Positions 2,517-11,844 of a DNA stretch of 32,154 bases are shown here, one piece after another. The stretch is from Methanosarcinales archaeon. GTDB taxonomy: Archaea > Halobacteriota > Methanosarcinia > Methanosarcinales > Methanogasteraceae. The position numbers and the translations under genes are program-made. Location of the stretch: positions 1 to 32,154 of the forward strand of contig JAUVWP010000008.1 in NCBI GenBank assembly GCA_030604085.1, written 5' to 3'. Under the pieces are notes generated by a model. The model ran no database searches and had not been told where the DNA came from. It saw only the letters and a list, made by a program, of their open reading frames with translations. Each line of letters opens with the position of its first letter. The stretch's first letter is position 1.

Positions 2517-3920
2517 TTACAGGCACGCATCGACAAACGCCTCAGCAAACCGCAGGTACGAACATGCATGGAGATGCGCATATCCTGCAAGCGTGTTCTC
2601 GACCATGATCCCGTCCCAGCCATCCTTGATCCCGACCCCACGCGTAAGCCGGATCGCAAAGGTGGCATCGCCGATATCCGTGACCGACGAATGATGGAAC
2701 TCATGCCCCCTGAACGAGTCACCAACTCCCCCGATCGGCGTATCCGTCGTGAACGAGCCGATATTGTAACTCACGACCTTGCCGACCATCTCAACCGTGG
2801 CAGGGATTGCACCGACCATCTCGAACGCCTCGCCAGACATCCCATGCATGCCGCTCTTTGTGACGATCTGCTCTGCAAGATACATCAGCCCGCCGCACTC
2901 ACCGTATATCGGCATGCCACCTGCCGATGCCTTCCGGATGCTCTGCCGGATGCGCTTGTTCGCTTCGAGTTCCCTTGCAAAGAGTTCTGGATAGCCGCCG
3001 CCTATGTAGATGCCGTCCACGTCAGGGAGTGCTCTGTCATGGAGCGGACTGAAATAGACGATATCTGCGCCATGCAACCTCAGAAGATCGATATTATCCG
3101 CATAATAGAAATTAAACGCCTCGTCAAGCGCAACACCGATCCTGACCTTCGCCCTGCCGCCGGCATCACCTCCCGCAAAGATTGAGGGTTCTCCGACATC
3201 GAGCGGTTCCGCAGTCTCTGCGATATCGGTCAGCTGCTCGAGGTCGATGTTCTCTGAAACGATCTCTGTTATCTTAGAGATGCGCTCCCTGAATTCAGGG
3301 GACTGCCTGCCCTCATTCACAGGAACCAGACCCAGATGCCGCATCGTAAGCCCCATGGCATCGTCTCTCGGAACCGTGCCGATGACAGGGATGCCGGTGT
3401 AGTGCTCGATAGCGGATACCGCCTTTTCAGCGTGTCTCCTGCTTCCGATCTTGTTGAGGATCACGCCTCTGATATCAACCGCAGGATCAAACGCCCTGTA
3501 GCCCATGACCACTGCGGCTGCGCTTCGTGTGATGCTCCTCGCATCGATTAGTAGGATCACAGGACATTTCAGTGCCTTTGCGACCTGAGCCGTGCTTCCA
3601 AGATCGCTCAATCCCTCGAATCCTTCGTATAGCCCCCGAACTCCCTCGATGATGGCTAAATCCGCATTTCCATCATTCATCGCATGGGCGAACGTCTCGA
3701 GCACAGCGTCTTCTGTCATCAGATAGCCGTCGAGATTCCTGCACCTGTTTTTGCATACGAGCGTGTGGTAACTCGGATCGATGTAATCGAGACCTACCTT
3801 AAACGGCTGAACATTCAGATGCTTGCTAAGCGCAGCCATGATCCCGGTGCAGACCGTGGTCTTTCCTGCAGACGATCGGTCAGCAGCGATGAGCACTCTG
3901 GGGGTGTTATTTTGTGTCAT
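2517..3920 (-). CDS. cfbB: Ni-sirohydrochlorin / cobyrinate a,c-diamide synthase
   Basis: The 467-residue product has a P-loop dethiobiotin-synthetase-like N-terminus (AADRSSAGKTT, about residues 12-22). The C-terminal class I glutamine amidotransferase domain carries the nucleophile Cys in YGECGGLMYL (about 342) and the partner His in FRGHEFHHS. The family transfers amide groups from glutamine to the a and c carboxylates of cobyrinate (CobB/CbiA) or Ni-sirohydrochlorin (CfbB, coenzyme F430 synthesis). In an archaeon of this type CfbB is the likelier role, but sequence alone does not separate the two and both activities are possible. The frame extends to a TTG at 3959; I prefer the ATG at 3920 because it begins just before the conserved core. 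Confidence 0.87.
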   Translation of the reverse strand: MTQNNTPRVLIAADRSSAGKTTVCTGIMAALSKHLNVQPFKVGLDYIDPSYHTLVCKNRCRNLDGYLMTEDAVLETFAHAMNDGNADLAIIEGVRGLYEGFEGLSDLGSTAQVAKALKCPVILLIDARSITRSAAAVVMGYRAFDPAVDIRGVILNKIGSRRHAEKAVSAIEHYTGIPVIGTVPRDDAMGLTMRHLGLVPVNEGRQSPEFRERISKITEIVSENIDLEQLTDIAETAEPLDVGEPSIFAGGDAGGRAKVRIGVALDEAFNFYYADNIDLLRLHGADIVYFSPLHDRALPDVDGIYIGGGYPELFARELEANKRIRQSIRKASAGGMPIYGECGGLMYLAEQIVTKSGMHGMSGEAFEMVGAIPATVEMVGKVVSYNIGSFTTDTPIGGVGDSFRGHEFHHSSVTDIGDATFAIRLTRGVGIKDGWDGIMVENTLAGYAHLHACSYLRFAEAFVDACL

Positions 3921-8769: not shown

Positions 8770-9684
8770 TCAGAATTTCTCTCGCACAACAACCCCACCC
8801 TCACTCGCCTTTGTGATGATCGCACGCCCCCCGGCGTCGTTGATCGCCGAAGCAACCGCGTCGGCAGCCGCGTCGCTGGTAAGCGCAACGATGCACCCAC
8901 CGCCGCCAGCGCCTGTGATCTTCGCACCATACGCGCCCGCATCCCTGGCAGCGCACACCAGTCGCGAGAGTTTCGCGCTTCCGACGCCGATCGCATCCAG
9001 AAGCCCGTGATCGATGTTCATCAGTTCCCCGACCGACCTGTAATCGCGTCCCTCGATTAAGGGCACGCCGATCTCTGACAGGTTGTCTATGATATCGAAT
9101 ATCGAGTCCATAACCCCGGGATAGTTCTCATGCATGATTCTGACATTTCCCACGAGTTCTTTTGTGGAAGAGAACTCTTCTGTATCCCCGATAACGATGT
9201 CGCACTCGATCAGCCGCAGTTTCGATGATGATACTCCGGGTGTTATCAGCATGGTGCCGCCCATCGTCGAGACTGTGGTGTCGGTCGGCGATGCCGCGCC
9301 CTGGACATCCCGCTCGATCCGGTGTCCCACCTCTGCAAGCGTGGCGCTGTCCATCATGAGCCGGAACTCGGCATTGAGCGCGCCAAGCGTTGCGATCACC
9401 GCAGCAGCCGACGATCCGAGTCCTGAGCCGACCGGAATCTCTGAATCGATCCGTACCGAGACAGAAGGAACAGCGAGCGATTCGATGCACCGCGAGATGT
9501 AGGGATGCACCATGTAATCGATGCCTGTCGTGCCGAGAAGGGACGAGATCGTCGTCTGGTCAGATTCCGAAACCGTTGCGGTGGTGCGGAGGTTGATTGC
9601 GGATGCGATCGCACGCTTGCCGTAGACTACCGCATGTTCGCCGAAGAGATATATTTTTCCGGGTGCAGAGCAGGTTGTGGTCAT
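8770..9684 (-). CDS. mvk: Mevalonate kinase
   Basis: The 304-residue GHMP kinase contains the N-terminal APGKIYLFGEHAVVYGKRAI, the ATP loop PVGSGLGSSAAAV (about residues 85-97) and the C-terminal motif KITGAGGGGCIVAL. It phosphorylates mevalonate in the isoprenoid pathway that supplies archaeal ether lipids. The length is normal for archaeal enzymes and the ATG at 9684 is the first start. The 8608-8769 gap downstream contains no gene. A broken copy of the first 27 or so codons lies 0.8 kb away on the same strand (10417-10496). Confidence 0.95.
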   Translation of the reverse strand: MTTTCSAPGKIYLFGEHAVVYGKRAIASAINLRTTATVSESDQTTISSLLGTTGIDYMVHPYISRCIESLAVPSVSVRIDSEIPVGSGLGSSAAAVIATLGALNAEFRLMMDSATLAEVGHRIERDVQGAASPTDTTVSTMGGTMLITPGVSSSKLRLIECDIVIGDTEEFSSTKELVGNVRIMHENYPGVMDSIFDIIDNLSEIGVPLIEGRDYRSVGELMNIDHGLLDAIGVGSAKLSRLVCAARDAGAYGAKITGAGGGGCIVALTSDAAADAVASAINDAGGRAIITKASEGGVVVREKF

Positions 9685-9769
9685 GTTATCGCGTGTCTCT
9701 TATTTTCTGTGGGGTGGTGTGGGTCGCACCTGGTCACCTTGCCAGCAGTGATCCGGGGGAGCTTCCCTT

Positions 9770-9994
9770 TCATACGGCTACTTCCAGAGATGTCAGGCTT
9801 ATAGCCTCTGTGTGAGGGATATCTTCCCTATCTTCTCTCCTATCTTCAATATGAATGCGAATAGCATCCCTGATATTCTCTAAAACCTCTTCGTAACTAT
9901 CACTTTGCGTATAGCATCCCTGAAGCTCAGGGCAGAAGGCAAAATAGCCATCTGCGTCCTTCTCGATCACTACCGAGATCCGATATCTTTGCAT
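9770..9994 (-). CDS. HicB-family (type II toxin-antitoxin) protein, orphan
   Basis: The 74-residue product is a partial RNase-H-like fold typical of HicB: RISVVIEKDADGYFAFCPEL, then GCYTQSDSYEEVLENIRDAI. A perfect Shine-Dalgarno (AAGGAGG) lies nine bases before the ATG. HicB proteins normally neutralise the HicA mRNA interferase, but no HicA-like frame is present on either side. The short open frame just upstream on the same strand (9999-10190) has no HicA features. The gene may be a solitary regulator or the remains of a degraded pair. Confidence 0.82.
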   Translation of the reverse strand: MQRYRISVVIEKDADGYFAFCPELQGCYTQSDSYEEVLENIRDAIRIHIEDRREDREDIPHTEAISLTSLEVAV

Positions 9995-10199: not shown

Positions 10200-10514
10200 T
10201 CATGCGATTACCGGCTCCGAAACCAGCTTTGGCGCATAAGCGACCAACGCCTCACGTGCCATGCGGACTGCTTCGGCAATCGCATCGCTTGTAAGTGCGT
10301 AACGCCACTCTTCGATGATTGCCCCATAAGCCATGCCGCCCTCAACCTGTTCCAGCACATCCGCGACCCGGATGCGCGTGCCGCGAAATGTTGGTTCGCC
10401 ATGGCAGATGGCGGGGGGTTGATTGCGGATGCGATCGCCCTCATGCCGTAGACTGCCGCGTGTTTGCCGAGGAGGTCTATCTTTCCGGATGCGGGGTGGG
10501 TTAGCCCTCATCAT
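10200..10514 (-). CDS. DUF433 protein with a chimeric N-terminus
   Basis: Residues from about 36 on are a clear DUF433 domain (PAICHGEPTFRGTRIRVADV... then EEWRYALTSDAIAEAVRMA), a family often found as antitoxin or DNA-binding partner in type II toxin-antitoxin loci. The first 35 or so residues are not native: they come from reading a broken mevalonate-kinase fragment (10417-10496) in another frame. An AAGGAG just before the ATGATG at 10509-10514, inside the 3' end of the upstream membrane-protein gene, could start translation by coupling. About ten native N-terminal residues of the domain are missing. Functionality is doubtful; it may be a pseudogene. Confidence 0.6.
   Translation of the reverse strand: MMRANPPRIRKDRPPRQTRGSLRHEGDRIRNQPPAICHGEPTFRGTRIRVADVLEQVEGGMAYGAIIEEWRYALTSDAIAEAVRMAREALVAYAPKLVSEPVIA
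10417..10496 (-). pseudogene. Fragment of the mevalonate kinase 5' end
   Basis: On the minus strand this stretch translates as ASGKIDLLGKHAAVYGMRAI followed by ASAIN, plainly the start of mevalonate kinase (APGKIYLFGEHAVVYGKRAI then ASAIN). At DNA level it aligns to 9591-9670 with 67 of 80 positions equal by hand count. It ends abruptly where the DUF433 coding sequence begins, so it marks a duplication or recombination junction. Most of the differences are A/G or C/T. Confidence 0.85.
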
Positions 10515-11670
10515 ATCTCCTTTTAAATTCGTCAAAAGAGGATTTTAGGTGGGGATACTTATTTACACGATTTTTCATCACCAAATCCTTACCAATCTCT
10601 TTATCTATTTCTTTTAGATTTTGGATTACATTGTCAACCCGTTTAGGCATATATTTCGCCACAAGTACGCCTAAACACCATACTCCTTGCACAGCATTCA
10701 AAGCAATGGATGTACTTATCATATCGCTTAACCCCGTGCTACCACTTAACTTCACGACAACATCTCTTAGTCCTTTTACAGCATGAATTGTCGTGTATCC
10801 AAATCCTTTCTCGACAGCTTTAATCCCAACAGATTCCATACTATCAGTAACCTTCCGAACTATCTCCGACCAATCATCGGGTCTATTTTTGGCAGCCTCA
10901 ACACCAATATCCCTTAATCCATCAACTGCAACCCCTACGATCATCATGTCATCAAATCCCTTATCAATAATTCCGTTTCCCAAATCTCTAATACCACATA
11001 CCGCAATGATAACTGTTGTGTATCTAAATCCTTGTTCAATCGATTCTTTGCCGAATTTTGATAGCTGGTTTAGTATTTTCCTTACGTCGTCTTCGCGAAA
11101 TTCTCTAACTGCGTCTTTGCCGATCTCACTCAACTCCTTGATTTTGTTTTCAGCCCTTGGTTCGTAGCCCGATTCAATCGCTTCCGCAATTTTTTCATTT
11201 AGATTTACTATCCCAATGTCATACTTTATTGTTCTATTAACGCTTACTAAGAAAGGAAGTAATGAAAAGACACAAAAACTCGCAATAACAATCGACAAAG
11301 GTACACCCCATTCCCAAAACTCAAATTCAATAACTAAAAGCGGTGCAATAATTCCAATTCCAAAGAAAATCATTAAAAACTTGGTTTCACGTCTAAATAT
11401 GATCTTATCCATCGCAGTGTATCTTCTCGTCATCTGTGCTACTACTAATGTAATCGTAAACACCAACGCAAGTATAGCAGCCAAGCCTTGAGAGATTGCG
11501 CTTAATATATACCTTGCATTCTCTGGGCATTCGTTTGGATGGGCGCAACATAGGATTGAAAAGACTATCAATGTTAGAATTAGGCAATAAATCCAGTATT
11601 TATATTTTATCCATTTATACCTGAATCGTCGGGCGAGTTCCTTGACTTTCTCTTTTGCTTGATCTTTCAT
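10501..11670 (-). CDS. DUF2254-like membrane protein
   Basis: The 389-residue product has an N-terminal membrane domain with about four segments (near residues 25-45, 55-80, 95-115 and 120-140) whose ILSAISQGLAAILALVFTIT resembles the DUF2254 family core. A soluble C-terminal half of about 240 residues repeats a G-I/L-R-D-[ILV] helical unit (GIRDLGNGII, GLRDIGVEAA, GLRDVVVKL). The ATG at 11670 is chosen because GGAGGGTGGA lies directly upstream; the frame also opens at 11688. The gene looks clearly AT-richer than its neighbours and sits between a recombination scar and the dpp operon, so horizontal acquisition is likely. Function unknown. Confidence 0.65.
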   Translation of the reverse strand: MKDQAKEKVKELARRFRYKWIKYKYWIYCLILTLIVFSILCCAHPNECPENARYILSAISQGLAAILALVFTITLVVAQMTRRYTAMDKIIFRRETKFLMIFFGIGIIAPLLVIEFEFWEWGVPLSIVIASFCVFSLLPFLVSVNRTIKYDIGIVNLNEKIAEAIESGYEPRAENKIKELSEIGKDAVREFREDDVRKILNQLSKFGKESIEQGFRYTTVIIAVCGIRDLGNGIIDKGFDDMMIVGVAVDGLRDIGVEAAKNRPDDWSEIVRKVTDSMESVGIKAVEKGFGYTTIHAVKGLRDVVVKLSGSTGLSDMISTSIALNAVQGVWCLGVLVAKYMPKRVDNVIQNLKEIDKEIGKDLVMKNRVNKYPHLKSSFDEFKRRYDEG

Positions 11671-11844
11671 TCCACCCTCCGGCATCATATTGAAAATGGT
11701 AAGCCATGATTCATTATACTTGCTGTAGAACCCCTACGACTTTTCCTAGAACCTATCCTATTAATTCATCAGTATACAGTGACAGACTTATTTTGATATT
11801 AATATAAAAATACATTTGCCTACCCGGGCGAACCAAAACAAAAA

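Follow-up and report, generated by a model that had tools for sequence, protein, structure and literature searches.

In the genome of an ANME-2c archaeon, a methane-eating organism, a short open reading frame joins the end of one gene, an out-of-phase piece of the mevalonate kinase gene (mvk) and the core of a DUF433 antitoxin, which raises the question of whether such a frame is a new protein or the trace of lost genes. The draft genome totals 2.0 Mb in 181 contigs, and the window analysed here, of 32,154 nt, is its contig C64. A sequence-only reading of this locus had left both options standing, a pseudogene scar or a chimeric protein with translational coupling. Genomes used for comparison carry G numbers and contigs C numbers, and "leader" denotes the mvk 5'UTR plus codons 1-44 where these occur as a displaced copy. 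The features of the locus are as follows.

8770..9684 (-), intact mevalonate kinase gene mvk, a GHMP kinase of 304 aa and the source of the repeat
9685..9773 (-), hicA stub that keeps about 15 native codons (MKGKLPRITAGKVT) and then runs into the mvk 5'UTR; HicA is intact in G002
9770..9994 (-), HicB-like antitoxin (profile match) between the chimera and mvk
10200..10535 (-), chimeric ORF, 111 codons counted from TTG, likely starts at ATG 10514 or ATG 10511; made up of an overlap with the DUF2254-like end, the out-of-phase mvk piece and the DUF433 core
10200..10416 (-), DUF433 (PF04255) antitoxin core with native C-terminus, its first 13-18 codons absent
10412..10420 (-), deletion join of mvk codon ~32 to DUF433 codon ~18; CCCGC at both parental sites in G010 (microhomology)
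10414..10492 (-), mvk 5' relic, about codons 5-32
10493..10523 (-), second join, the DUF2254-like 3' end (FKRRYDEG*) to the mvk piece; neither the 5'UTR nor the ATG of the leader is kept
10501..11688 (-), gene next upstream of the chimera, for a membrane protein that is DUF2254-like by a Pfam match below threshold; G012 has a homologue at the corresponding position
11615..11730 (-), 5' stub of an Eco57I-type restriction-methylase gene, 88% identical to the restriction-gene starts on G002:C217 and C12

The two mvk 5' copies lie in the same orientation about 0.75 kb apart and form a direct repeat (9588-9676 and 10414-10502; 82% identity over 89 nt). In a search of the whole genome the relic at 10414-10492 matches 9588-9666 (85% identity over 79 nt, E = 8e-19), in close agreement with the earlier estimate of about 84% over 80 bp, and the local alignment score of the repeat is 98, far above the best of 200 shuffles (34). 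The relic is indeed read in a phase other than that of mvk. A fragment limited to about codons 5-32 and out of frame does not qualify as a mevalonate kinase, for which PxxxGLGSSAA and both GHMP domains are required. The frame is uninterrupted for 111 codons in 10535..10200(-), and its predicted translation across the join includes ...GDRIRNQPPAICHGEPTFR. The coordinates also bear out the start signals that had been proposed: AAGGAG (10522-10517) and ATGATG (10514-10509) lie within the end of the DUF2254-like ORF, the stop of which is at 10503-10501, so that the start of the chimera overlaps that stop, and 5 nt separate AAGGAG from the second ATG. The name of the upstream gene is less secure, its DUF2254 match reaching 24.5 bits, under the Pfam cut-off of 28.8.

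The antitoxin part is recognisable and incomplete. PF04255 matches codons 41-90 of the chimera with 45.1 bits (cut-off 23.6) over profile positions 5-53 of 56; positions 1-4 and the segment preceding them are absent, while relatives match from position 1. The window DUF433 is without METVTMETKTLGRYIVAD or an equivalent, and the N-terminal segment RYIVADP is likewise lacking. The mvk piece does join the DUF433 coding sequence, as had been suggested; the junction is not within the first ten codons, since it falls at about codon 18 when counted on the METVTMETKT form and at codon 13 on the METKT form. The window DUF433 is 90% identical in DNA to the copy on C12, another contig of the same genome, and 88% identical to that on G008:C149. 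The pairwise dN/dS of the DUF433 core is 0.18-0.39, and past constraint is therefore evident. Only six window-private codon changes could be scored (three non-synonymous, three synonymous); these are too few to prove or exclude selection and leave room for recent constraint on the core.

The origin of the arrangement becomes clearer from related loci. C12 carries a second DUF433 gene, also with an mvk 5' piece ahead of it: about 40 bp of mvk 5'UTR, the start codon and 47 codons to a TGA, followed by DUF433 with its own ATG, with 6 nt from the TGA of the leader ORF (MTSTHSAPGKPQFFGKHAAVHGKRAITSAIN...) to that ATG. The combination of leader and DUF433 is also present in G010 (same family), G011 and G034, with about 110 bp extra between the two parts in G011. 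The ancestral unit thus consisted of the leader, a DUF433 gene with its own start and, originally, a DUF5615 toxin gene. DUF433-DUF5615 pairs without a leader are present in relatives of the same family and order, and because of these the leader is regarded as the added part. Decayed leader remnants were found in G001, G002, G006 and G008 (only the junction in G001 and G006); the leader on G008:C39 runs into a DUF5615 remnant, and that of G012 into a MazEF-type pair. A restriction gene precedes the leader, with one gene between, in C12, G012 and G034. A short mvk match in G052 was discounted as truncation at a contig end. On G011:C129 an IS200-type transposase gene (578-1153, +) adjoins the leader-DUF433 unit in divergent orientation. 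A search for a plasmid carrier gave no match among 72,556 plasmids, and the literature searched yielded nothing on DUF433 together with DUF5615 or on toxin-antitoxin systems of ANME-2c.

G034 is a MAG named Ca. Ethanoperedens thermophilum. Its contig C113 (31-5864) holds a restriction gene, a TPR protein gene, an mvk leader of the ANME-2c type, a truncated DUF433 and more toxin-antitoxin-like genes, content likely transferred from ANME-2c. Mis-binning was considered and set aside, as a neighbouring gene is 92% identical to the same-genus genome G022 and the contig looks genuine; the leader unit therefore seems to have moved between families.

When twelve mvk genes and eight leaders are aligned, homology to mvk ends at one base, about +135, in C12, G010, G034 and G011, and the leaders of G012 and G008:C39 break at about that point too. 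The sequence past the breakpoint is AGGTGAAAAACAATGG in C12, G010 and G034 and AAGTGAAAACCAATGG in G011. Over the first 32 codons, dN/dS is 0.06-0.66 between leader and mvk versus 0-0.19 among mvk genes, so the leader is generally not maintained as an mvk-like protein; the G008:C39 leader is still little altered relative to mvk. In C12 and G010 the leader may still provide a promoter and translational coupling for the antitoxin. The window has lost the start region of the leader, and any translation there would rely on the end of the DUF2254-like gene.

Compared with these units, the window is short of sequence at several points. The stretch linking mvk codon ~32 to the DUF433 core is shorter by about 95 bp than in G010 and by 107 bp than in C12, and the join reads AACCCCCCGCC. 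The second join lands at about mvk codon 5, where in the G012 counterpart an intact DUF2254-like end (KRRYDGR*) still leads into a 5'UTR and leader. The possibility that AAGGAGATATGATG is the leader's own ribosome-binding site and start, to which C12 has the similar AAAGGAGATAATATG, was dropped: in G012 the region is the native DUF2254-like end (FKRRYDGR*), and the likeness to C12 is therefore coincidental or secondary. After the DUF433 stop the toxin start overlap GCATGA is retained, and the sequence diverges past ATGAA; no ORF for a DUF5615 partner toxin follows DUF433 in the window, while the pair is intact in G008:C149. Upstream, residues 1-23 of the DUF2254-like protein (MMPEGGMKDQAKEKVKELARRFRY) are the start of the Eco57I-type restriction-methylase gene, and an internal deletion apparently joined the two genes in frame. 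In the hicA stub, the stop of the frame falls on the mvk start codon. As at least three deletion products of a similar kind follow one another here, a scar is the economical reading of the chimera.

The DNA ahead of mvk is variable well beyond the window. At the loci L137-L144, ANME-2c genomes differ in the toxin-antitoxin genes or stubs that they carry upstream of mvk. An HD-domain gene lies immediately upstream in G004, G006 and G012, HicBA with a PIN-like gene (our own reading, with no Pfam match) in G002, UPF0175 with DUF3368 in G011, HicB in G009 and the window, and a MazE-like gene in G014. On G009:C44 (L136), an internal mvk fragment reaching about codon 106 (3311-3589, -; 69% identical) stands behind a probable ABC-transporter ATPase fragment, and this fusion looks like another pseudogene built from mvk and upstream neighbours. 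The left flanks of several leaders resemble those of bona fide mvk in other genomes: the G002 leader flank matches the G004 mvk flank (95% over 400 bp), as does that of G008:C39 (91% over 364 bp), and the G034 leader flank matches the G015 mvk flank (88% over 102 bp). The mvk 5'-end direct repeat and an intact mvk share one contig in the window, G010 and G012 and are spread over two contig ends in G002. There, the end of C217 carries the HD gene, the leader and the start of the restriction gene running off the contig, and C8, which begins about 30 codons further along, carries the body of the restriction gene, HicBA, the PIN-like gene and intact mvk. We infer that C217 and C8, which are not assembled together, are adjacent, giving the order HD gene, leader, restriction gene, toxin-antitoxin genes, mvk, and the island appears to lie between two mvk 5' ends, one displaced and one restored. 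The ancestral order mvk-DUF433, for which the sequence-only reading had looked to relatives, is thus not simply what they show: in G010 and G012 the order is leader, DUF433 or other toxin-antitoxin genes, other accessory genes, intact mvk.

We therefore consider the chimera, with a probability of about 80%, to be a deletion scar within an accessory-gene island beside mvk. Such a scar would have arisen by one deletion that joined the DUF2254-like 3' end to mvk codon ~5, another, at the CCCGC microhomology, that joined mvk codon ~32 to DUF433 codon ~18, and a third that removed the toxin; the order of the deletions, like the mechanism of insertion discussed below, is read from draft MAG contigs. 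Microhomology-mediated deletion scars are known in toxin-antitoxin and defence islands, and the CCCGC at the window join and the truncated neighbouring genes are in line with them. The open frame would be a by-product, its product, if made, would be an N-terminally altered antitoxin without a partner, and the window antitoxin is probably a non-functional orphan. PIN toxin/DUF433 (COG2442) antitoxin modules have been described (PMC2701414), and the window ORF shares their DUF433 core, as the DUF433-DUF5615 pairs of relatives do. Unlike in those modules, the window copy lacks its N-terminus and toxin, and mvk-derived sequence is fused to it.

A functional chimeric antitoxin, started at ATGATG by coupling and with the mvk-derived peptide as a new N-terminal extension of DUF433, would account for the open frame, the usable Shine-Dalgarno sequence and ATG, the stop/start overlap with the upstream ORF and a DUF433 core that exceeds the Pfam cut-off. 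However, the exact junction was found only in the window genome and in no other genome or locus searched, no homologue sharing the N-terminus of the chimera as a conserved protein was found, the partner toxin is deleted past its second codon, the private changes are evenly divided between the two classes, RYIVADP is lost, and the neighbours (hicA and the restriction gene) are truncated alike. The private junction, the even division of changes and the loss of the toxin favour the pseudogene scar over the new chimeric protein, which has little in its favour and is quite improbable. The sequence-only reading also implied a fusion in one step, in which a broken tandem copy of mvk was joined directly to DUF433, unrelated to other loci. 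The short distance between the copies and their common orientation would suit such an event, yet the unlinked C12 and G010, G011 and G034 have a longer leader and a common junction, and unless C12 arose independently it contradicts this origin, which we regard as very improbable; with relatives carrying a 44-codon leader and a DUF433 with its own start, the window is better seen as a secondary deletion. Least credible of all is an artefact of the draft assembly. Repeats can create false joins in a genome of 181 contigs, but the joined pieces are 10-20% diverged from their other genomic copies, which leaves no identical repeat to mediate a mis-join, and parallel structures are present in independent MAGs.

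How the mvk 5' end came to be duplicated is a separate matter, on which site-specific integration offers one answer: an element bearing an integrase would attach at the mvk 5' end, the leader being the displaced end and the intact mvk the restored gene. Known islands that enter a conserved gene at its 5' end and leave it restored include SXT/R391 in prfC and SGI1-like IMEs in dusA (PMC2791158, PMC8409611), and integration of this kind would yield the geometry seen at mvk, with a displaced core-gene 5' end on one side and, on the other, an intact gene whose 5' flank is new (in G002 over two contigs, with the leader keeping the original flank; elsewhere the arrangement is presumed). The common breakpoint near +135 in several leaders also agrees with it. 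However, this breakpoint may reflect common descent, and the left boundary is variable, as the G002 leader departs from mvk at codon 29 rather than 44. Unlike the SXT and dusA islands, the mvk loci show no integrase among those genes profiled between leader and mvk on these short contigs and no identified attachment core, their cargo is small restriction-modification and toxin-antitoxin genes, leaders also occur away from mvk (C12 and Ethanoperedens), and the window itself holds only scars; the sole mobile gene seen is the IS200-type transposase beside the G011 leader. Site-specific integration is thus unlikely. In our preferred reading, which goes with the deletion scar proposed for the window, the wider pattern probably arose when restriction and toxin-antitoxin DNA entered at the mvk 5' end and duplicated it, the displaced copy staying on to supply the accessory genes with a promoter and leader; recombination within the mvk 5' homology could then exchange flanks and place units ahead of mvk again. 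A more specific proposal, tentative and one that may well prove wrong, is that the mvk 5' end carried by the islands doubles as promoter and reusable address: homologous recombination over about 180 bp would dock an island before mvk, restore mvk and leave a leader that drives toxin-antitoxin genes, all without a dedicated integrase, and the unit would also have passed to Ethanoperedens.

Taken alone, the chimera is ordinary decay and of minor importance, most likely a decaying antitoxin gene. It carries a caution, as out-of-frame copies of housekeeping gene starts can yield plausible yet spurious chimeric ORFs. The larger interest lies in mvk, a single essential gene of archaeal lipid synthesis that anchors a fast-changing hotspot of defence and toxin-antitoxin genes. 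Stray mvk starts recur next to restriction and toxin-antitoxin genes in ANME-2c, a modest variant of the islands at gene 5' ends, and the duplicated mvk 5' ends, which can be aligned, offer a way to trace insertions, deletions and transfers in these uncultured methane-oxidising archaea.
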